Source: Pleurocapsa sp. PCC 7319
Lineage (GTDB): Bacteria; Cyanobacteriota; Cyanobacteriia; Cyanobacteriales; Xenococcaceae
Assembly: GCF_000332195.1 (NCBI RefSeq)
Contig: NZ_KB235922.1
Coordinates: forward strand, 5,863,322-5,927,321
Length of the DNA: 64,000 nucleotides
Reading direction: 5' to 3'
Shown: positions 50,811-63,776 of the stretch, piece by piece
Layout: each line of letters opens with the position of its first letter
Position numbering within the stretch: position 1 is the first letter of the stretch
Position numbers and translations under genes: made by a program
Notes under the pieces: model-generated
Seen by the model: only the letters and a program-made list of their open reading frames with translations
Told to the model about the DNA's origin: nothing
Databases searched by the model: none

Positions 50811-52022
50811 ATGAAAATTAATTGTCAGGTGAAAAAATTATTAGGAGCTAGTCTCCTTGTGGTTTTGGCAGGTTGTTCCGTTGCCGAAAATTCCACTTCG
50901 GCTCAAAGTACGGCTAACTCATCGCCAAATAGTCCTCTTATCTCCGATAACGAGGTTGCCGTCGCTGAAGGTTTTAGTACCAGAACCGTTTTACAAGGGC
51001 TAGAACGTCCTTGGGGGATGGCATGGTTGCCCGACGGTTCGATTTTGATTACCGAACGTCCAGGAAAACTGCGGATTGTTAGAAACGGCAAGTTAGATTT
51101 AGAGCCGATACCAGGTGTTCCAGAAGTTTTTGCCGTCAATCAAGGAGGCTTAATGGATATTTCCCTCCATCCCGATTTCGAGCAAAATCGCTTGGTTTAC
51201 TTTACTTATTCTCAAGGTACGAATCAGGCAAACCATACTCGTGTTGCTAGAGCGACTTTTGATGGAACTAGCTTACAAAACTGGTCAGATATTTTTGAAG
51301 TTACTCCAACTAAGTCAGATGGTCAACATTTTGGCTCTCGCATTGTCTGGTTGCCCGATAGTACTATGCTGGTAGCGTTTGGCGACGGTGGTAATCCTCC
51401 AATTCGATTTAACGGTGAATATATACGCAATCAAGCTCAAAATCTCGGTTCTCATCTTGGCTCAGTAGTACGAATTAACGATGATGGCTCGATTCCCCAA
51501 GACAATCCTTTTGTTAACGACAGTAATGCTGATCCCGCTATCTGGAGTTACGGACACCGCAATATCCAAGGAATGACCATCGAGCCGACTACAAATCGCG
51601 TTTGGTCGCACGAACACGGTTCGAGAGGTGGTGACGAGTTAAATTTAATGGAAGTTGGTCAAAACTATGGTTGGCCTAAAGTAAGCTATAGCGATGAATA
51701 TACTGGTGGTAGAGTAGCAGAAATTAGCTCTCGTCCCGATGTCCCCGAACCAAAAGTAGTCTGGACACCATCGATCGCCCCTTCAGGACTAGCATTTTAC
51801 AGCAGCGATCGCTTTTCTGGATGGCAGGGAGATCTCTTTGTAGGAGGTCTGGTTTCTCGCGATGTTCGTCGCATCGATCTCGACGGGGAGGGTAATGTTT
51901 TAGGTGAGGAATCAATTCCTATAGGTCAACGAGTACGCGATGTCAGGCAGAGTCCCGACGGCGGACTTTATGTTCTAACGGACGAGCAAAATGGAAGTTT
52001 GATAAGTATTGAACCTGAATAG
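50811..52022 (+). CDS. PQQ-dependent sugar (aldose) dehydrogenase, lipoprotein
   Basis: 403 residues. A lipobox (LLVVLAGC, C22) predicts a lipid-anchored periplasmic enzyme. The beta-propeller of the soluble glucose/sorbosone dehydrogenase type is clear: LERPWGMAWLPDGSILITER, GGLMDISLHPDFEQNRLVYF, FGSRIVWLPDSTMLVAFGDG, IWSYGHRNIQGMTI and PSIAPSGLAFYSSDRFSGW. Such enzymes oxidise aldoses with PQQ and pass electrons to the respiratory chain. Placing it 70 bases before pqqA makes the cofactor link nearly certain. The two are probably one transcript. Confidence 0.92.
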   Translation: MKINCQVKKLLGASLLVVLAGCSVAENSTSAQSTANSSPNSPLISDNEVAVAEGFSTRTVLQGLERPWGMAWLPDGSILITERPGKLRIVRNGKLDLEPIPGVPEVFAVNQGGLMDISLHPDFEQNRLVYFTYSQGTNQANHTRVARATFDGTSLQNWSDIFEVTPTKSDGQHFGSRIVWLPDSTMLVAFGDGGNPPIRFNGEYIRNQAQNLGSHLGSVVRINDDGSIPQDNPFVNDSNADPAIWSYGHRNIQGMTIEPTTNRVWSHEHGSRGGDELNLMEVGQNYGWPKVSYSDEYTGGRVAEISSRPDVPEPKVVWTPSIAPSGLAFYSSDRFSGWQGDLFVGGLVSRDVRRIDLDGEGNVLGEESIPIGQRVRDVRQSPDGGLYVLTDEQNGSLISIEPE

Positions 52023-52092
52023 ATTTGTCATCCCAAGAGCATCTTCCAGACCAGTAAGTATAGTAAATAAACAAACAGTTAGGAGTAACGTA

Positions 52093-52281
52093 ATGGAAAG
52101 AGCAAAAGACTATTCAAGTTCTAGTAAAAAAGAAAGCGATACTGCCAATAACAACAAAGTCAAAAACACGACGGATACTGTTTCTAGTAAGGGAAAACCA
52201 ACCGCAGTTTGGCAATCACCAGAGTTTGAAGAGTTCGATCTTGGCATGGAAGTAACAGCCTACATTCAACACTGGGACTAA
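52093..52281 (+). CDS. pqqA: PQQ precursor peptide PqqA, with long N-terminal extension
   Basis: 62 residues from ATG 52093, with AGGAG at 52081-52085. The C-terminus WQSPEFEEFDLGMEVTAYIQ carries the diagnostic E-x-x-x-Y pair (E53 and Y57) that PqqE cross-links and that supplies all PQQ carbons. Usual PqqA proteins have 22-30 residues; here about 37 extra polar residues (Ser, Lys, Asn-rich) precede the conserved part. The stop overlaps the pqqB start (TAATG), so translation is coupled. Confidence 0.9.
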   Translation: MERAKDYSSSSKKESDTANNNKVKNTTDTVSSKGKPTAVWQSPEFEEFDLGMEVTAYIQHWD

Positions 52282-53189
52282 TGCTGATACGTATATTAGG
52301 TTCGGCAGCAGGAGGCGGATTTCCTCAATGGAACTGTAATTGTGCGGGTTGTCAGGCTGCTCGTAGTGACAAAGGGGTAAACCCCCGCACTCAATCATCC
52401 TTGGCTGTTCGTGGTTCTTCAGGGGACTGGTTTTTGGTCAACGCCTCTCCCGATGTGCGCCAACAGTTAGAGCGACTTCGAGACGGAGAATCTACTTCGG
52501 TTCGTTTTAGTCCCATTGCGGGGGTACTGCTAAGCGATGCCGAGATCGACCATTCCGCAGGATTGACTATCCTACGAGAAGCTACCGAACCACTGCAAAT
52601 TTACGGCACAAACGCTGTGAAACAAGCATTGACAGAAGGCTTTTCTTTGCTGAGAGTGCTTGAGAATTACTGTGGGGTTGAATGGTCTGTTATCGAACCG
52701 GGTACGGTTGTAAATTTGGGCAGTAAGGAAAAATCTAGTCTTACAGTAGAAGCTTTTGCTGTGACGGGTACACCTCCCAAATACATAAGTTCGATTTCAA
52801 CTGAAGAAAATTGGGTCGTCGGATTTACTTTTCGCGATCGCGTCAGTGACAAAGTTGTTACCTATACTCCAGCATTGGCTGAGTTCACACCCGAAATCAT
52901 CAAGCGGTTTGAAGCGAGCGACTGTATCTTGGTAGACGGTACGTTTTGGCAAGATGACGAATTAACTAAACTCGGAACTTCGACCCGTACAGCTTTGGCA
53001 ATGGGACATTTACCTCTAGCGGGAGATAACGGTAGTTTGGCTCGTTTGGCTCAGGTAGCCTGTCCGCGCAAAATATTTGTCCACATCAATAACACTAACC
53101 CAATTCTGATTCCTAATTCTCCAGAACGTCAAATGGTGGAAGCTGTTGGTGTAGAGGTGGGTAACGACGGATTGACAATTGAACTGTAA
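52281..53189 (+). CDS. pqqB: PQQ biosynthesis protein PqqB
   Basis: 302 residues, metallo-beta-lactamase fold. The start LIRILGSAAGGGFPQWNCNC with CNCAGCQAAR and the SDAEIDHSAGLTILRE metal-site region are diagnostic of PqqB. It hydroxylates the tyrosine in the cross-linked Glu-Tyr intermediate. Start overlaps the pqqA stop; the pqqC start follows 14 bases after the stop. Confidence 0.96.
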   Translation: MLIRILGSAAGGGFPQWNCNCAGCQAARSDKGVNPRTQSSLAVRGSSGDWFLVNASPDVRQQLERLRDGESTSVRFSPIAGVLLSDAEIDHSAGLTILREATEPLQIYGTNAVKQALTEGFSLLRVLENYCGVEWSVIEPGTVVNLGSKEKSSLTVEAFAVTGTPPKYISSISTEENWVVGFTFRDRVSDKVVTYTPALAEFTPEIIKRFEASDCILVDGTFWQDDELTKLGTSTRTALAMGHLPLAGDNGSLARLAQVACPRKIFVHINNTNPILIPNSPERQMVEAVGVEVGNDGLTIEL

Positions 53190-53203
53190 AAATCAAAAAT
53201 ATC

Positions 53204-53926
53204 ATGCAAACAATCCCCAAACAGTCCGAATCATTGTGGACAAAAGAGGAATTCCAAGCCCAACTTTACGCCCAAAAATCTCGGTATCACGATCTGCATC
53301 CCTTTCATCGTCGGATGAATGAGGGTTTACTGACTCCAACAGAAGTAAAACTGTGGGCAGCAAATCGTTATTACTATCAAAAAAGTATTCCTCTTAAAGA
53401 TGCTGCTATATTATCCAACTGCCCCGAAAGAACCATCAGGCGGGAATGGATTGGGCGCATTATCGACCACGACGGACGCAAAGATACAGAGGGTGGGATT
53501 GAAGCTTGGCTGAGATTGGGAGAAGCCGTAGGGCTATCTCGTACCGAATTAGTAGAAGAGCGATACGTTTTACCTGGGGTACGCTATGCGGTTGATGCCT
53601 ATATTAATTTCTGTCGTACTCAACCGTATCTGATCGCGATCGCTTCTTCTCTTACAGAATTATTTGGTCCAGGCGCAATTAAAACTAGACTGGCAGCCTT
53701 AGAACAATATTACCCTTGGATCGATACTGCGGGTTTAGAATATTTTCGCGTCAGGCTACAACAAGCACCCCGCGATGCCAATTATGCTCTAAATCTAGTT
53801 CTAGATCGCTGTCAAACTTGTTCCAGTCAAGAACGAGCAGTTGAAGCCTTGATTTTCAAATGCGATTTACTTTGGAGTCAGTTAGATGCGATCGAGCGAG
53901 GGGAAACACGTCCGATGTATGACTAG
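53204..53926 (+). CDS. pqqC: Pyrroloquinoline-quinone synthase PqqC
   Basis: 240 residues, haem-oxygenase-like helical fold. Marks are KSRYHDLHPFHRRMNEGLLT, AANRYYYQKSIPLKDAAILS, RIIDHDGR, RLGEAVGLSR and the C-terminal CDLLWSQLDAIERG. It does the last, cofactorless eight-electron oxidation and ring closure to PQQ. The pqqD start lies inside its last codons (8-base overlap). Length and all key regions are standard. Confidence 0.96.
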   Translation: MQTIPKQSESLWTKEEFQAQLYAQKSRYHDLHPFHRRMNEGLLTPTEVKLWAANRYYYQKSIPLKDAAILSNCPERTIRREWIGRIIDHDGRKDTEGGIEAWLRLGEAVGLSRTELVEERYVLPGVRYAVDAYINFCRTQPYLIAIASSLTELFGPGAIKTRLAALEQYYPWIDTAGLEYFRVRLQQAPRDANYALNLVLDRCQTCSSQERAVEALIFKCDLLWSQLDAIERGETRPMYD

Positions 53927-54206
53927 TAAAAAAGATAGGGTTTATGTGTTAGACAATCTTGGTTTAGCCAATGGTGTGCGTTTACACTACTGCCAAGTCA
54001 GACAACAACACTGGCTGCTATTTCCCGAAGGTGCGATCGCGCTAAATCCAACTGCTACAGCAGTGCTTTCTAGTTGCAATGGCGATCGTTCTTTTGAGGC
54101 GATCGCGGAAATTCTTAAAAGCCAATTTTGCCAGGTAAATATCAGCCAAGTCCAAGATTTTTTGCAACAGATGATGAGACGTGGATTATTAATTTCTCAG
54201 TCATGA
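53919..54206 (+). CDS. pqqD: PqqA-binding protein PqqD (RRE)
   Basis: 95 residues from ATG 53919, overlapping the end of pqqC. It has the winged-helix RiPP recognition fold: HYCQVRQQHWLLFPEGAIAL, LNPTATAVLSSCNGDRSFEA and FLQQMMRRGLL. PqqD presents PqqA to PqqE. Its stop overlaps the pqqE start (ATGA). Longer starts (to 53886) would only extend into pqqC. Confidence 0.93.
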   Translation: MTSKKDRVYVLDNLGLANGVRLHYCQVRQQHWLLFPEGAIALNPTATAVLSSCNGDRSFEAIAEILKSQFCQVNISQVQDFLQQMMRRGLLISQS

Positions 54207-55324
54207 CAATAACCATCGAGCCACCTTTAACCTTAGTAGCGGAACTTACCTATCGCTGCCCTCTGCGTTGTCCTTACTGTTCCAATCCTACAGATTACGC
54301 CAGCAGTAACTACCAACAAGAATTAGTCACCGAACACTGGCTTGATACCATTCAACAGGCTGCTAATCTGGGAATTTTGCAGCTTGGTTTTACTGGGGGC
54401 GAACCTCTTTTGAGGCAAGATTTAGAACTGATGGTGGCAGCAGCAGCAACAACGGGAATATATACCAGCTTGATTACAGCAGGTACGCTATTAACCGAAT
54501 CAAGGGCAGCTAAACTACGAGACTGCGGATTAGACCACATCCAAATCAGCATTCAAGACAGCCAAGCCGACAAATCTAACTATATTGCGGGAACTGCTTG
54601 TTTTGAGTCTAAGCTAGCTGCGATACGCTTGGTTAAACAATTGGGATTTCCACTGACGATTAATGTTGTCTTACATCGTCATAACTTAGATCGAATCGCA
54701 GAGATTTTAGACTTGTGCCAAACTTTAGCAGCAGATCGTGTTGAATTGGCTAATACTCAATATTATGGTTGGGCTTTACACAATCGAGATGCTTTATTGC
54801 CCACCCTAGAACAGTTGGAACGAGCCAAACAAGCAGTAGCCGCTCGACAGCAACAATTTCCGATGGGTATCGTCTACGTCCTACCCGATTACTACGAACA
54901 GTATCCCAAACCCTGCATGGGAGGATGGGGAAACCGCACGATGGTAATCGCTCCCAATGGCGATGTTTTACCCTGTCAAGCAGCTACTTCAATTTCCGAA
55001 CTAACCTTTGATAATGTTCGAGATCGTTCTTTGAATTGGATTTGGTACGAATCAACAGCATTCAATCGCTTTCGCGGTACTGATTGGATGGAAGAACCCT
55101 GTCGAAGCTGTCCCAGCAAAACACTTGACTTTGGTGGTTGTCGCTGTCAGGCTTTTATGCTTACAGGATCGGCAACGGCTACCGATCCTGTCTGTCATCT
55201 CGCACCAGATAATCAGGCGATCGCACTGGCTAAAAAACAATCGCAGTTGGCATCTGAGAGTTTTATTTATCGTTCAAGATCGAGCAAGCAAAAATTAACA
55301 ACCAATTACAGATCGGGTCAGTAA
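54203..55324 (+). CDS. pqqE: PqqA peptide cyclase PqqE (radical SAM, SPASM)
   Basis: 373 residues. The radical SAM cluster motif is C19-x3-C23-x2-C26 (ELTYRCPLRCPYCSNP), followed by GFTGGEPLLRQDLEL. The SPASM part has KPCMGGWGNRTMVIAPNGDV, PCRSCPSKTLDFGG and CRCQAF...PVCHLAP. It forms the Glu-Tyr carbon-carbon bond in PqqA. The C-terminal 33 residues (after DNQAIA) are encoded by DNA that is duplicated at 11878-12097, so the original tail is uncertain. ATG 54203 is chosen because of the ATGA overlap with pqqD. Confidence 0.96.
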   Translation: MTITIEPPLTLVAELTYRCPLRCPYCSNPTDYASSNYQQELVTEHWLDTIQQAANLGILQLGFTGGEPLLRQDLELMVAAAATTGIYTSLITAGTLLTESRAAKLRDCGLDHIQISIQDSQADKSNYIAGTACFESKLAAIRLVKQLGFPLTINVVLHRHNLDRIAEILDLCQTLAADRVELANTQYYGWALHNRDALLPTLEQLERAKQAVAARQQQFPMGIVYVLPDYYEQYPKPCMGGWGNRTMVIAPNGDVLPCQAATSISELTFDNVRDRSLNWIWYESTAFNRFRGTDWMEEPCRSCPSKTLDFGGCRCQAFMLTGSATATDPVCHLAPDNQAIALAKKQSQLASESFIYRSRSSKQKLTTNYRSGQ

Positions 55325-57921: not shown

Positions 57922-59934
57922 ATGTTCGATCTTACTAAGCTACCTGGTATTCAACAATTATGGTCAAAAACTAAAGGTGACCCCAAGATTTGCGTAGCAA
58001 TTTTAGATGGTTTAGTTGACCAAACTCATCCCTGTTTTGAGGGAGCTAATTTGGCTCGATTGCCTACTCTGGTTGAAGGGGAAGCTAGTCTTGATGGCAC
58101 TATGTCTACCCATGGAACTCATGTGACTAGCATTATCTTTGGTCAGCCTAATTCTGCGCTTCCTGGGATTGCCCCTAAATGTAAAGGATCGATCGTTCCT
58201 GTATTTTCCGACCGACAACGTAGCCTGTCTCAACTCGATTTAGCTCGTGCGATCGAACAAGCAGTTAGTGCTGGCGCAGACATTATTAATATTAGTGGGG
58301 GACAACTAACTGATGACGGCGAAGCCGAAGATTGGCTCAAGCGTGCAGTGCGTCTGTGCCAGGAAAATAATGTCTTAATTGTGGCAGCAGCGGGCAATGA
58401 TGGCTGTGAGTGTTTGCACGTTCCAGCAGCACTCCCAGCAGTCTTAGCAGTAGGGGCAATGGATGGTTTAGGACAACCTCTAGAAATTAGCAACTGGGGG
58501 AAAACCTACCAAAGTCAGGGCATTCTTGCCCCAGGTGAAAATATATTAGGGGCAAAGCCAGGAGGGGGGACGGTAAGGCTAAGTGGCACTAGCTTTGCTA
58601 CGCCGATTGTTACTGGGGTTGCTGCTTTATTACTAAGTTTGCAACATCAATACGGAGAAATCGATCCACAGCAGGTACGCACTGCCTTGTTAAAGACTGC
58701 TCTACCTTGCGATTTTAGCTTGAAAAACGACCATCAGCGTTGTTTAGTAGGAAAGCTGGATATTTTTAGTGCGCTTAAATATTTAACAGGAGAAATTATG
58801 ACGAAAGAATTACAAACCATTGAAGCTTCGGGTTGCGGTTGCGGTGGCAACGATAACACCAGTACTGAAGTTTTAGCTAATACAGCAGTTTCCAACGAGT
58901 TAGAAACCGAGTCAAAACAAACTGTTGTCTCCAATAGCGAAGATCGAGAAGTCAAATCAAGCGAATTAGTTACTGCTTCTGCTGCTGAAACTATGTATAC
59001 CTCTAATACATCTGCCGATCGAACAACTTCTATGCCTACTCAATCTGCTAACTTTGTTAACGCCAGTCAAGCACCCAGCAATATATCCGAAGTAAATTTA
59101 GTGTATGCCCTTGGTACACTGGGATACGATTTTGGCTCTGAAGCTAGACGAGACTCTTTTAAACAATTTATGTCGGGTGTGGCAATCGAACCTGGCATTT
59201 TAGTGCCAGCTAACCCCTATGATGCTCGTCAGATGGTGGATTACTTAGGAGAGAATCTTTCCGAAGCCAAGTCTTTGATTTGGACTTTGAATATGGAATT
59301 GACTCCTATTTATGCGATCGAGCCTGTAGGTACTTTTGCTCGTGATGTCTATGAAGTTTTTCAAGAATTTTTGTCGGGACAGGTACAGGCTGAAGACAAC
59401 GACGAGTATATCGAGCGAGTCAGTATTCCTGGACGCATCACGGGAAGGACAGTAAGGCTGTTTTCAGGACAGATTGTGCCAGTAATCGAACCTGAAAGTC
59501 CTCGCGGAATGTATGGCTGGAAGGTTAACACCTTAGTTGGTTCGGCTCTTGAAGCAGTAAGAACTCAAGAAGGAGATGTTGATGAACAGCAAATGCGAAG
59601 ATCTCTTGGTAGTTTCCTCAACCGCGTTTACTATGACTTGCGGAATTTAGGTCAAACTTCTCAAGACCGCGCACTCAATTTTGCTGCTACCAATGCTTTT
59701 CAGGCTGCTTCTACTTTCTCAGAGGCAGTGGCAACGGGAATGGAGTTAGATAGCATTAACGTCCAAAAGAGTCCTTTCTGTCGTCTGGATAGCGATTGTT
59801 GGGACGTACAGTTAAAATTCTTCGACCCAGAAAATAGTCGCAGAGCTAAAAAAGTATTCCGCTTTACTATCGATGTGAGTGACCTAGTGCCAGTTACTTT
59901 GGGCGAAGTTCGCTCTTGGTCTACTCCTTATTAA
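57922..59934 (+). CDS. patA: Cyanobactin N-terminal protease PatA ([14 protein letters not shown], with PatA/PatG C-terminal domain)
   Basis: 670 residues. The subtilisin domain (1-290) has D29 in VAILDGLVDQTHP, H64 in STHGTHVTSIIFG and S224 in LSGTSFATP, with an oxyanion Asn in IVAAAGNDG. A low-complexity linker with a Cys-rich GCGCGGND (about 302-310) leads to a domain (about 395-670: LVYALGTLGYDFGSEARRDS, GRITGRTVRLFSGQIVP) seen in PatA and PatG. PatA cuts precursor peptides at the N-terminal side of each core cassette. It is the first gene of the cluster. No signal peptide, so it acts in the cytosol. Confidence 0.93.
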   Translation: MFDLTKLPGIQQLWSKTKGDPKICVAILDGLVDQTHPCFEGANLARLPTLVEGEASLDGTMSTHGTHVTSIIFGQPNSALPGIAPKCKGSIVPVFSDRQRSLSQLDLARAIEQAVSAGADIINISGGQLTDDGEAEDWLKRAVRLCQENNVLIVAAAGNDGCECLHVPAALPAVLAVGAMDGLGQPLEISNWGKTYQSQGILAPGENILGAKPGGGTVRLSGTSFATPIVTGVAALLLSLQHQYGEIDPQQVRTALLKTALPCDFSLKNDHQRCLVGKLDIFSALKYLTGEIMTKELQTIEASGCGCGGNDNTSTEVLANTAVSNELETESKQTVVSNSEDREVKSSELVTASAAETMYTSNTSADRTTSMPTQSANFVNASQAPSNISEVNLVYALGTLGYDFGSEARRDSFKQFMSGVAIEPGILVPANPYDARQMVDYLGENLSEAKSLIWTLNMELTPIYAIEPVGTFARDVYEVFQEFLSGQVQAEDNDEYIERVSIPGRITGRTVRLFSGQIVPVIEPESPRGMYGWKVNTLVGSALEAVRTQEGDVDEQQMRRSLGSFLNRVYYDLRNLGQTSQDRALNFAATNAFQAASTFSEAVATGMELDSINVQKSPFCRLDSDCWDVQLKFFDPENSRRAKKVFRFTIDVSDLVPVTLGEVRSWSTPY

Positions 59935-60299: not shown

Positions 60300-60542
60300 A
60301 TGCCAGAAGAAGTAACCCCAACCCGTCGGAAAACTCGTGGGAAGAAAACCACGGCAAAAGCTAAATCAGAACCAACTCAACCAGAAGAAAAAGCTTCAGT
60401 GCCACCAAAAATACAGGAGCGCAAGAAACCTAAAATTTTGGCGACTGGACTAGAAGATTACGGCAAGTGGAAAGCCATGTTTAAAGACCACCAGCGTCAA
60501 GAAAATGAGCCTCCCTTCCGTCGGGGACGCATTTGGTCGTAG
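60300..60542 (+). CDS. patC: Cyanobactin cluster protein PatC
   Basis: 80 residues, with AGGAG at 60284-60288. The N-terminal half is a basic, Pro/Lys/Thr-rich disordered stretch (RRKTRGKKTTAKAKSEP). The C-terminal 35 residues (ILATGLEDYGKWKAM, then KDHQRQENEPPFRRGRIW) are nearly identical to the end of the next protein. PatC-type proteins have no known function. The tail is basic-acidic mixed and aromatic, and may be a docking segment; that is inference. Confidence 0.75.
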   Translation: MPEEVTPTRRKTRGKKTTAKAKSEPTQPEEKASVPPKIQERKKPKILATGLEDYGKWKAMFKDHQRQENEPPFRRGRIWS

Positions 60543-60571
60543 CATCATATCTAATTTTGCAGAGAATAAAT

Positions 60572-61036
60572 ATGTCTAACTTTCGTATTTTTGGTCGTAT
60601 CGTCGATCGCGGTTCTGGTTCGGGGATTCCTAATCTCCGTGTTGAAGTTTGGGATAAAGATGTCAAACACGATGATTTATGCGGAACTGCGGTAACTAAT
60701 GCTCAAGGCAATTACGAGATCGTATTCGACGAATCTGCTTTTAAAGATTCGCCAAAGGATACTCTACCCGATGTTTATCTGCAAATTTTCCAGGGAAATA
60801 AGCAGGTTGAGAGTACCAAAGACGCTGTACGTAAAAATGTTCCTTCAGGCGATACGGAAATCAATTTTGAGTTAGGCATTGCTGCTAATTCTGCTTCTAA
60901 GATAATGCGATCGCGTCCCAAACCAACCATACTGGCGACTGGACTAGAGGACTATGGCAAGTGGAAAGCCATGTATAAAGACCATCAGCGCCAAGAAAAT
61001 GAGCCACCCTTCCGTCGGGGTCGCATTTGGGCATAG
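60572..61036 (+). CDS. Transthyretin-like beta-sandwich domain protein with PatC-type C-terminal tail
   Basis: 154 residues from ATG 60572. Residues 1-115 look like a carboxypeptidase-regulatory/transthyretin-like fold: FRIFGRIVDRGSGSGIPNLR, VEVWDKD, LCGTAVTNAQGNYEIVFDES and DVYLQIFQGNKQVEST. Such folds bind peptides, sugars or partners. Residues 120-154 repeat the PatC tail (60929-61033 against 60435-60539), with 12 base changes in 105 but only two amino-acid changes. I do not know this protein from the classical patellamide cluster. It is inside the operon, before patD. Confidence 0.8.
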   Translation: MSNFRIFGRIVDRGSGSGIPNLRVEVWDKDVKHDDLCGTAVTNAQGNYEIVFDESAFKDSPKDTLPDVYLQIFQGNKQVESTKDAVRKNVPSGDTEINFELGIAANSASKIMRSRPKPTILATGLEDYGKWKAMYKDHQRQENEPPFRRGRIWA

Positions 61037-61037
61037 C

Positions 61038-61151
61038 TATAGCTGTACAAAGTTACGTTAGGACAGATTAGTTATCTGCTCGAAAGTAGCAAGTAGCAAG
61101 TAGCAAGTAAGAATTTTAAAGGATGTCCTAACGCTGATACATGATGCTATG
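61038..61151. mobile_element. MITE-like element, TATAGC family, copy 3, between patC-like gene and patD
   Basis: 114 bases. Left end TATAGCTGTACAAAGTTACG then TTAGGACA; right end TGTCCTAACGCTGATACATG then ATGCTATG. The centre has AGTAGCA heptamers (three). It covers the ATG at 61141, which shows that the longer patD start is not original. Confidence 0.8.
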
Positions 61152-61164
61152 GAGTAAAAGTGTT

Positions 61165-63444
61165 ATGAAACTGACTACCATTCCTCAAATCAAGCCTCAC
61201 TACCAGATTGAGGTTGTCGAACCAAAACAGGTATACCTGTTGAGCGAACAATCTACCCATGTGCTGACTGGACAACTTTATTGTCAAATTTTGCCTCTGT
61301 TAACTGGAGAACATAGTCTAGAGCAGATCGTGCAAAAGTTAGAGGGGCAGGTTTTACCAGAACATATCGACCACGTCCTCGATCGCCTGGAGAATAAAGG
61401 CTATCTAACTGAAGGGTCAACAAATTTGTCTCCTCAAACAGCAGGATTTTGGAGTGCTTTGGGGATAGCACCGTCTCAGGCAGTCCGATGTATGCGATCG
61501 GCGCGAGTAGTCCTGAAGGCTCTAGGGCAGGTGGATACAGAGCCGTTAGCTGCTGCCTTGGCTGCGGTAGGAATTCAGACTCAAAGCAATAACGATCGCT
61601 CCTCAGAGTCACCAACATTAACGGTGGTGCTAACCGATGACTATCTGCGACAGGAGTTAGCCGAAATTAACCAACAAGCTTGTCAAACTAGACAACCCTG
61701 GTTATTGGTGAAGCCCGTAGGCAGAATACTTTGGCTGGGACCAATTTTTGAAGCGGGAACGGGCTGTTGGGATTGTTTGGCGCATCGACTGCGAGGCAAT
61801 CGGGAGCTTGAGACTATGATTTTGCGACAAAAGCAGCAGGATAAAATATCTGGCTGTTTGCCGATGACCCCAGTAATGTTGCCTTCAACCCTTCAGACGG
61901 GGTTGCAGTTAGCAACGACGGAGGTAGCAAAGTGGTTAATTAAACAAGAGCTAGAAGAGAAGACTCTATCGACCTTAGAAGGTAATATTCTTACTTTCGA
62001 TTGTATCTCTCTAGAGCTTAAAACCCACGCCCTGCCCTATCGTCCTCAATGCCCTACCTGTGGCAATCCGAAACTACTGCACCAACGGGGCTTTGAACCG
62101 ATTCAACTTCGTTCTCGCCTCAAGCAATTTACTAGTGATGGCGGTCATCGGGCTGTAACCCCCAGCCAAACCGTAGAGAAGCATCGACATTTAATTAGCC
62201 CAATTTCGGGAGTTGTAACCGAGTTGGTGCGAATTTCTGACCCTAGCAATCCGTTGGTGCATACCTATCGAGCCAGTCATAGCTTTGGTAATGCTACTTC
62301 CCTAAAGGGTTTGCGTCATGCTCTACGCTATAAAAGTTCTGGTAAAGGAAAAAGCGATCGCCAGTCCCAAGCCAGTGGTTTTTGCGAGGCAGTAGAACGC
62401 TATTCTGGTATCTATCAGGGAGATGAGCCTCGGATTCGGGCAACCCTAGCCGAGTTAGAGGGAGCAATACATCCCGAACAATGTTTGCTGTTTAGCGATC
62501 GCCAGTACGCCAACCGCGAGATTTTAAATCAACAAAAGACCGTCGCTCACGACTGGATACCCCAACGGTTCGATCCGACTCAGGCGATCGACTGGACACC
62601 AGTATGGTCGCTGACAGAACAGGTTCACAAGTACTTACCTACCGCTTTTTGTTATTATGCCTATCCCTTACCTAAAGACCATCGTTTCTGCAAAGCCGAC
62701 TCTAACGGTAATGCTGCTGGCAATACTTTAGAAGAAGCAATTTTACAAGGATTTCTGGAACTGGTAGAACGGGATAGCGTAGGTTTATGGTGGTACAACC
62801 GTCTACAGCGACCCCAGGTAAATTTGGCTAGCTTTGACGAGCCATACTTTTTACAACTACAAGAATTTTATCGGCAAAACAACCGCGAACTTTGGGTATT
62901 AGATGTAACTGCCGATTTAGGGATTCCTGCCGTTACTGCCTTGTCTCGCCGTACCGATGGCAACACAGAGCGAATTATTGCTGGGTTTGGTTGCCACCTC
63001 GATCCTAAAATTGCTATTTTACGAGCCTTGACTGAAGTAAACCAACTCGGTCTAGAGTTAGACAAAATTCCCGCAGAGGAACTAGGGGCAGAATTCAAAC
63101 AGTGGATGCTGAGCGTAACTCTAGAGAATCAGCTCTATCTCGCTCCCGATACCACCGTTCCAGTGAAGACTGCTCAGGATTATCCTCAAAGCTGGAGCAA
63201 TGATATTTATACAGATGTCATGACCTGTATCGAAATTGCTCGGCAAGCGGGGTTAGAAACCCTGGTGCTAGATCAGACGCGACCCGATATTGGTTTGAAC
63301 GTAGTCAAGGTAATCATTCCAGGAATGCGCCACTTTTGGTCGCGGTTTGGTGCAGGGCGACTGTATGACATACCCGTAAAGCTGGGCTGGCGGGATACAC
63401 CATTACCAGAAGCACAAATGAATTCAATTCCGATGCCTTTTTAA
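61165..63444 (+). CDS. patD: Cyanobactin heterocyclase PatD/TruD-like (YcaO)
   Basis: 759 residues. The E1-like/RRE front domain starts QIKPHYQIEVVEPKQVYLL and binds the precursor leader; zinc cysteines are in CWDCLAHR and QCPTCGNPK. The YcaO domain (about 300-759) has DGGHRAVTPSQTVEKHRHLI (DGGHRAVTP), SGFCEAVERYSGIYQGDEPR and GNTLEEAILQGFLELVERD ATP-binding parts, and ends with PMPF, as in TruD. It makes thiazolines from core cysteines with ATP. ATG 61165 has GGAG ten bases upstream (61151-61154) and fits the family start; the ATG at 61141 lies in a MITE end. Confidence 0.95.
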   Translation: MKLTTIPQIKPHYQIEVVEPKQVYLLSEQSTHVLTGQLYCQILPLLTGEHSLEQIVQKLEGQVLPEHIDHVLDRLENKGYLTEGSTNLSPQTAGFWSALGIAPSQAVRCMRSARVVLKALGQVDTEPLAAALAAVGIQTQSNNDRSSESPTLTVVLTDDYLRQELAEINQQACQTRQPWLLVKPVGRILWLGPIFEAGTGCWDCLAHRLRGNRELETMILRQKQQDKISGCLPMTPVMLPSTLQTGLQLATTEVAKWLIKQELEEKTLSTLEGNILTFDCISLELKTHALPYRPQCPTCGNPKLLHQRGFEPIQLRSRLKQFTSDGGHRAVTPSQTVEKHRHLISPISGVVTELVRISDPSNPLVHTYRASHSFGNATSLKGLRHALRYKSSGKGKSDRQSQASGFCEAVERYSGIYQGDEPRIRATLAELEGAIHPEQCLLFSDRQYANREILNQQKTVAHDWIPQRFDPTQAIDWTPVWSLTEQVHKYLPTAFCYYAYPLPKDHRFCKADSNGNAAGNTLEEAILQGFLELVERDSVGLWWYNRLQRPQVNLASFDEPYFLQLQEFYRQNNRELWVLDVTADLGIPAVTALSRRTDGNTERIIAGFGCHLDPKIAILRALTEVNQLGLELDKIPAEELGAEFKQWMLSVTLENQLYLAPDTTVPVKTAQDYPQSWSNDIYTDVMTCIEIARQAGLETLVLDQTRPDIGLNVVKVIIPGMRHFWSRFGAGRLYDIPVKLGWRDTPLPEAQMNSIPMPF

Positions 63445-63578: not shown

Positions 63579-63776
63579 ATGGATAAGAAAAACATCATCC
63601 CCCAACAGGCACAGCCCGTACAACGATCTACTCAGGGAACTAAAGCCGACTTACTCGCTGAATTAACTGAAGAAAACCTCGGCACTGTAGCTGGAGCAAC
63701 TGCTTCTATGGTGACAGATAAAGTCTCAATGGCTTGCTATTGTGCTTGTTCCTATGACGGTGATGAAGCGGAATAG
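63579..63776 (+). CDS. patE: Cyanobactin precursor peptide PatE, copy 1
   Basis: 65 residues, GGAG at 63567-63570. The leader DKKNIIPQQAQPVQR and the heterocyclase recognition segment LAELTEENLG (26-35) match PatE/TruE. A possible N-terminal cleavage signal is GATAS (39-43); the C-terminal recognition sequence SYDG (58-61) is clear. The single core ends at C57: MACYCAC (51-57) is a seven-residue core with three cysteines; a longer core MVTDKVSMACYCAC (44-57) fits if GATAS is the cut site. Expected product: an N-to-C macrocycle with up to three thiazol(in)e rings. Confidence 0.93.
   Translation: MDKKNIIPQQAQPVQRSTQGTKADLLAELTEENLGTVAGATASMVTDKVSMACYCACSYDGDEAE

Follow-up and report, generated by a model that had tools for sequence, protein, structure and literature searches.

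A PatC tail recurring on unrelated proteins of cyanobactin gene clusters as a candidate portable docking tag

Encapsulin cargo peptides and BMC encapsulation peptides are peptide docking tags. In the parts of the cyanobactin papers that could be searched, no comparable role is ascribed to PatC, which appears there as a short or hypothetical protein without an assigned function. According to the same partly accessible sources, nearly every cluster has a conserved PatB and PatC; the two are unexplained, and both are non-essential for synthesis (PMC4259220, PMC4663559). SphC of the sph cluster bears the family name TIGR04447, and the accessible text describes this cluster as having no heterocyclase gene (PMC6162287). 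The structure of the PatG DUF was reported as a new fold that bound neither unmodified nor heterocyclised PatE, and the available sections leave its role open (PMC4259220).

The window analyzed here is a stretch of 64,000 nucleotides from Pleurocapsa sp. PCC 7319 (GCF_000332195.1, NZ_KB235922.1), and all positions refer to it. It contains a cyanobactin gene cluster in the order PatA, PatB, PatC, transthyretin-like protein, PatD and PatE (Table 1). The cluster continues just past the window with two more copies of PatE and with PatG, so that the locus (L031) has three PatE in all and PatG. The start of the transthyretin-like protein is best read as the ATG at 60572. The N-terminal part of PatC is likely disordered, with low pLDDT in the model outside the tail.

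Table 1. Features of the cyanobactin gene cluster in the window.
Feature	Position	Strand	Basis
Cyanobactin protease of the PatA type (subtilase followed by PatG_D and PatG_C, together the DUF)	57922..59934	+	TIGR03895 940 bits; Pfam Peptidase_S8
PatA DUF parts: PatG_D aa 394-507, PatG_C aa 554-666	within 57922..59934	+	Pfam
PatG_D part of the PatA DUF, putative tail receptor	59101..59442	+	Covariation; YDAR loop aa 433-436
ASGCGCG motif in PatA linker	58825..58845	+	C305 and C307 mark tail-bearing clusters
PatB, 65 aa	59985..60182	+	TIGR04220 122 bits, cut-off 55
PatC, 80 aa; Lys/Pro-rich N-terminal part, then tail	60300..60542	+	TIGR04447 50.3 bits, aa 49-80
First 35-residue tail copy (PatC domain)	60435..60539	+	TIGR04447; pairwise comparison
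Transthyretin-like domain and PatC tail, 154 aa	60572..61036	+	Pfam TTR-52; AlphaFold; Foldseek
Second 35-residue tail copy	60929..61033	+	TIGR04447 48.9 bits, aa 123-154
PatD-type YcaO cyclodehydratase	61141..63444	+	Pfam YcaO 1.1e-103
PatE precursor	63579..63776	+	TIGR03678 and DUF5837

The C-termini of PatC and of the transthyretin-like protein are identical at 33 of 35 residues (ILATGLEDYG...RGRIW[S/A]), with F/Y at position 16 and S/A at position 35 as the only differences, and 12 of the 105 bases differ (93 agree), exactly as the original prediction had stated. The likeness runs about three residues further upstream (KPxILA), where it fades. Nine of the 11 changed codons are silent. For the last 32 codons, dN is 0.027 and dS 0.60 (NG86; dS is rough for such a short stretch), so the protein sequence was held while silent sites drifted. 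The window tail is kept by purifying selection, which bears out the earlier view that it is under strong selection and not freshly copied.

The same prediction had taken the tail to be undescribed and its two carriers to be unrelated. In fact, NCBIfam TIGR04447 (PatC_TenC_TruC; a 34-position model, typed as a domain), the family of PatC, TenC, TruC and SphC, matches both tails end to end. The family is the signature of PatC itself, so that the transthyretin-like protein is the one that bears a PatC tail, and only the N-terminal parts of the two proteins are unrelated. Chance similarity is excluded because both tails match independently (scores in Table 1; cut-off 30 bits). Both are also encoded in a cyanobactin cluster, and the source genome (7.39 Mb in 10 contigs) has TIGR04447 matches at E <= 10 in two places, both of them in this cluster and above the cut-off. 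The accessible papers further use the name PatC for a short protein with no other domain, a usage outside the model, which fits PatC but not the 154-residue transthyretin-like protein.

For the transthyretin-like part, the Pfam TTR-52 match (E = 6.2e-5) scores 24.0 bits, just under the cut-off of 24.9. AlphaFold predicts a beta-sandwich, with pLDDT mostly above 90 for the first 100 residues, and Foldseek matches include TTR-52, HIUase and transthyretins, the best being Cyanothece 9R-lipoxygenase (PDB 5ek8). By prediction, the N-terminal part of the window protein has a fold in common with TTR-52, HIUase and the Cyanothece lipoxygenase. A similar domain occurs in 38 of 388 genomes of the order at E <= 1e-6, mostly in long open frames. 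The window protein has it as a small module with the PatC tail at its end; elsewhere, in the loci examined, the domain mostly stands at the head of long proteins. Among 30 loci examined, it is joined to the tail only in the window and in one other genome (G360), which has the same gene order PatB-PatC-TTR and a stop codon between domain and tail.

The G360 locus bears on the question whether the shared tail is a passive outcome of duplication or conversion between neighbouring genes, with no common partner. Over 32 compared positions, the two window tails have 30 residues in common, whereas each shares fewer with its counterpart in G360 (21 for PatC and 18 for the transthyretin-like protein, the G360 version of which is a relic), a pattern that local duplication or conversion would produce. 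However, the low dN against the higher dS points to selection on both copies, fusions of the tail to several folds recur, and the G360 copy lost core residues once it was cut off by the stop codon (RRGRIW to RRASIW). We therefore consider a purely passive origin highly improbable.

The spread of the tail was assessed in two ways. One degenerate pattern, TGL[ES]DY[GS][FRK]W, was run against a single genome per species (84,980 species) and gave 43 stretches, of which 42 were confirmed, all 42 in records titled as cyanobacterial; as the pattern overlooks tails such as TGLQDY, these loci are only a part of the total. The TIGR04447 profile matched 28 of 386 genomes in a draw from the phylum (26 above cut-off) and 82 of 388 in a draw from the order (81 above cut-off), while 14 control genomes gave no match at the same E-values. 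Within the genus of the source, the order draw has the tail in 2 of 13 genomes, the source genome and one other (G562). The two draws together contain 84 genomes with a match. All matched places were fetched, yielding 102 tail ORFs, of which 93 are full length (80 genomes, 76 distinct tail strings) and nine are fragments or weak. Two or three full-length tails occur in 12 of the 80 genomes. Among multi-tail cases, the second tail of G360 is the relic already discussed, G547 has two separate PatC loci, and G493 has three LamG-tail genes in a row.

Conservation is concentrated in a near-invariant core (alignment A2), with T in 68/69, G in 70/70, L in 66/70, D in 67/70, Y in 68/71 and W in 69/69 in the first part, and F in 68/71, R in 74/75, R in 73/74, G in 70/71, R in 69/72, I in 69/72 and W in 67/71 in the second. 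The tail ends exactly at the stop codon in 86 of the 93 full-length cases, and is followed by 1-10 further residues in the remaining seven.

Linkage to cyanobactin genes is close. In the fetched flanks (about 10 kb, shorter at contig ends), PatA or PatB accompanies 87 of the 93 full-length tails (PatA 81, PatB 82). PatD was found for 30 (some flanks are cut by contig ends) and PatE for 25 (a single, insensitive query). Six tails have neither PatA nor PatB at the cut-offs, four of them no more than about 2.1 kb from where a contig ends (G097, which has a short PatA piece, G581, which has PatD and PatE, G501 and G521). The other two, G563 and the jacalin fusion of G619, are full-length tails with no PatA or PatB in the fetched DNA, where they are true exceptions, and they count against a docking role. 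The original prediction had proposed to check whether the tail ends other domains and always lies near YcaO or PatA genes. Its occurrence behind other domains was found, and so was proximity to PatA or PatB, though the YcaO protein PatD is far less regular; a tail widespread away from RiPP genes, which would have spoken against a docking tag, was not what the flanks revealed.

The carriers themselves are diverse. In 66 of 93 cases the tail ends a short protein, and in 27 of 93 it stands behind another domain in a protein of at least 150 residues. These 27 comprise 15 LamG/ConA-lectin proteins (with one to four domain copies), eight of a CBM-like family, two VWA-like, one jacalin lectin and the transthyretin-like protein of the window, so that the usage of PatC for a short protein without other domain fails for all of them. 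Two of the labels are weak: 'CBM-like' rests on Pfam E-values of 0.003-0.011, below cut-off, in three of the eight proteins or their identical named copies, with no CBM match in the other five, although every one of the eight matches the others (phmmer E <= 3.4e-45, within this set of eight), and 'VWA-like' on E of about 0.002 (L049) and an NCBIfam E of 0.0004 (L192). A Nostoc locus of the named collection (L072) has an additional CVNH-LamG-tail protein. Judged by these domain assignments, most carrier modules belong to sugar-binding families. In contrast to PatC as described in the accessible parts of the papers, the domain is thus found at the C-terminus of long proteins as well, of lectin-like, CBM-like, VWA-like or transthyretin-like kind. 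Within the searchable literature, which leaves many subscription papers outside, no PatC-lectin fusion was found described (including the accessible text of PMC4663559, PMC6162287, PMC4259220, PMC5460452 and PMC3610870), nor the modularity of the PatC tail or a use of it as a portable tag on lectin-like modules.

In some genomes, two tail versions appear to have coexisted for a long time. A Crocosphaera locus repeats the window layout, with a short PatC followed by a domain-PatC protein and nearly identical tails (dN 0.027, dS 0.17). Desmonostoc and Nostoc linckia each have a PatC and a LamG version, for which dS between orthologues is 0.3 and 1.0, and between paralogues 1.75 or saturated; there, and likewise in two Oscillatoria genomes, each tail version resembles its counterpart across species more than the version next to it. 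Both versions were thus kept for long, and those of Desmonostoc and Nostoc linckia look like two old lineages.

Selection on the tail, its C-terminal recurrence on unrelated folds and its linkage to cyanobactin genes are what a docking tag predicts, and the carriers are indeed unrelated proteins tied to one machinery. To this extent the docking idea of the original prediction stands, and PatA, which it had named as a possible partner, is plausible. PatD, which it had also named, is unlikely as a general partner, given its presence in fewer than a third of the flanks and a sph cluster that, in the text available, has SphC without a heterocyclase (PMC6162287).

To weigh PatA and its parts as partners, we compared tail distances in the 50 genomes with PatA, PatB and tail. 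Correlations were 0.72 with PatG_D, 0.70 with whole PatA, 0.67 with PatB, 0.64 with PatG_C and 0.58 with the protease domain. The partial correlation of the tail with PatG_D given the protease was 0.54, that with the protease given PatG_D 0.17, and that with PatG_C given the protease 0.39. For PatD, used as a control from the same clusters (n=19), the values were 0.18 for PatG_D given the protease and 0.67 for the protease given PatG_D. The correlation of tail and PatG_D also ranked above every one of 60 draws of PatA columns matched for variability, and did so in all four of the overlapping genome sets. This covariation favours the PatA DUF as the receptor. It could nevertheless stem from linkage, since patB and patC adjoin the 3' end of patA, and it is not specific for the tail, as PatB tracks both parts (0.56 for PatG_D given the protease, 0.45 for the protease given PatG_D, n=50) and so does PatG (0.56 and 0.39, n=29).

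Individual PatA positions also separate tail-bearing clusters from tail-less relatives. The YDAR loop is present in at least 51 of 53 tail-bearing PatA and mostly deleted or changed in eight tail-less relatives. The ASGCGCG linker motif is likewise shared by tail-bearing PatA and mostly lacking in these relatives; its C305 and C307 are found in all 53 tail-bearing PatA, versus 0/8 and 1/8 of the relatives (kinship ignored). The eight relatives are PatA-family proteins, PatA or PatG orthologues, from seven of the 10 tail-less genomes and from G312, which has a relic tail; left out by hand were L249 (G042) and L251 (G237), taken for PatG-type, and L257 (G300), an incomplete copy. The conserved positions lost in the tail-less proteins are, however, not concentrated in PatG_D (7/63 in PatG_D, 9/136 in the protease, 7/29 in the linker and 9/87 in PatG_C).

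PatB is the other candidate receptor, in which case PatB and PatC would form an accessory module acting after biosynthesis, in regulation, retention or immunity. TIGR04220 (PatB) was found in 24 of 386 genomes, strictly nested in the tail genomes (24/24), and PatB lies within 600 bp of 77 of the 93 tails. PatA-family matches above cut-off occur in 34 of the 386 genomes, of which 23 have both PatB and tail, one only a relic tail and 10 neither (Fisher p 8e-8 for the association of PatB and tail, kinship ignored). In the four tail genomes without PatB, the tail copies are truncated, isolated or weak. However, operon adjacency alone could give such co-inheritance, the covariation of tail and PatB is modest after control for PatA (0.25, n=50), and an AlphaFold model of PatB and PatC as one read-through chain (pTM 0.25) gave no sign of a packed pair. 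We regard PatB as the receptor as rather unlikely. The 10 of 34 genomes with PatA-family proteins but no tail argue in turn against docking to PatA, and remote PatB-like proteins (TIGR04220 E 0.002-0.004, below cut-off) in two tail-less loci against the docking model in general.

In two AlphaFold runs, of this PatB-PatC chain and of the transthyretin-like protein, the tail is predicted as one short helix, LEDYGKWKAM[F/Y], with an additional K in the longer chain (residues 125-135 in the transthyretin-like protein), followed by an RRGRIW end without regular structure. The pLDDT of the tail block reaches 86 in the PatB-PatC chain and 76 in the transthyretin-like protein. A search of solved structures with the tail profile gave no matches at E up to 5; the PatB profile gave four, the best only at E 0.73, which were disregarded. 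The PatC tail is like encapsulin and BMC tags in being a short C-terminal peptide, partly helical by prediction, behind a flexible linker on unrelated cargo, and unlike them in its longer conserved core, its FRRGRIW at the C-terminus and its tie to PatA/PatB loci.

The C-terminal position and the lectin-like carriers would also fit a signal for export or surface targeting, by which a non-Sec route carries such modules, perhaps with bound cyanobactin, to the sheath or to target cells. The carriers are mostly lectin- or CBM-like, often of extracellular kinds, the tail lies within 10 residues of the ORF end in 93 of 93 full-length cases, and inspection of the N-terminal 40 residues by eye reveals no evident signal peptide in the 27 long proteins. 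But the 66 short carriers have nothing obvious to display, and the transthyretin-like domain elsewhere in cyanobacteria heads seemingly intracellular enzymes (by eye; one plasmid match is annotated as carotenoid oxygenase). We consider an export signal unlikely.

A tail that binds the precursor or the finished peptide, as chaperone or store, and not an enzyme appears very unlikely to us, even though PatC is reported as dispensable for the chemistry in the accessible text. The tail motif GLED slightly resembles the recognition sequence GLEAS, but TGL[EQS]DY is mostly retained by the tail, whereas the region around the cleavage site differs between precursors. By eye and in few examples, the window PatE lacks GLEAS, and a cluster with GLEAS (L039) has TGLQDY; the tail as a mimic of the GLEAS sequence is not favoured, for want of a fit in these examples.

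Our preferred reading, to which we give about an even chance on sequence evidence, is that the tail is a portable C-terminal docking tag for interchangeable modules, with the PatA DUF (PatG_D) as the most likely receptor. A short TGLxDYxxW...FRRGRIW peptide, partly helical by prediction, would plug into a common receptor of the cyanobactin machinery and bring its carrier to the cyanobactin complex, the carrier being either a flexible linker (plain PatC) or a putative ligand-binding module (LamG, jacalin, CVNH, CBM-like, VWA-like or transthyretin-like). PatB may be part of the same unit or an alternative receptor. In the window, plain PatC and transthyretin-PatC would be expected to compete for the receptor or to share it. 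Since PatB and PatC are reported as non-essential in the available parts of PMC4259220 and PMC4663559, the tag is not needed for core chemistry; conserved all the same, the two proteins probably have a role in placement, release or regulation.

Several other features of these loci were observed. In alignments A4 (34 rows) and A5 (11 rows), PatB and the PatE precursors begin with one motif, P-x4-P-V-x-R, which has identical spacing in both and is near-invariant in the precursors; the motif occurs nine times in 400,248 residues of long ORFs and 236 times in short ORFs of these loci, PatB and precursors included. Possibly, the factor that reads the start of the leader also reads PatB; alternatively, PatB may have arisen from a precursor. 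Homology between PatB and the PatC tail was rejected, as the window PatB ends in SIWG but other aligned PatB C-termini do not.

Five PatA-family loci without PatB or full tail (L247, L250, L252, L256 and L258) have small precursor-like ORFs with the leader motif, some with a GVEAS or MEAS spacer, and hydrophobic or Cys-rich ends, possibly another precursor class; L250 and L252 also contain the remote PatB-like ORFs. L247 (G030), which has neither PatB nor PatC tail by profile, encodes a transthyretin-like protein (L247:9860-10483) about 3 kb from PatA, with a leader-like motif (GMKLPPQAKPVKR) and a Cys-containing end at the C-terminus, where the window protein has the PatC tail.

Remnants of 18 codons of a second tail lie several hundred bases from PatC or PatB in L034, L040, L156 and L214, which suggests the former presence of another tail gene in these clusters. 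In L216 (G557), a 53-codon relic ORF (L216:5171-5329) matches PatA (E 6.5e-8) and also the tail in its second part, as though the two had been fused by a deletion. Just past PatG, outside the window, L031:11804-14122 encodes a 773-residue PhoD-like phosphatase; inspection by eye shows a likeness between its first part and the N-terminal domain of the CVNH-LamG-PatC protein from Nostoc (L072). The window also contains a full PQQ cassette (50811-55324; PqqA, B, C, D and E each above the NCBIfam cut-off), adjoining a gene like that of a glucose/sorbosone-type PQQ dehydrogenase (below cut-off), in a cyanobacterial host.

PatB, PatC and the DUF of PatA and PatG are, in the literature accessible to us, unexplained conserved parts of the cyanobactin pathway. 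With PatC as a candidate portable tag on sugar-binding-like modules that is nested with PatB and co-varies with the DUF, the description 'non-essential, unknown' becomes a testable binding hypothesis. Tentatively, and as a possibility somewhat on the unlikely side, the PatA (perhaps also the PatG) DUF may be the socket and the PatC tail the plug, with lectin-like modules anchoring the protease complex or the product to glycans, and the transthyretin-like protein of the window as one such module. If the binding hypothesis is true, it would tie the making of cyanobactins to the recognition of glycans or to placement in the cell, and would provide a short peptide with which proteins could be brought to RiPP enzymes.
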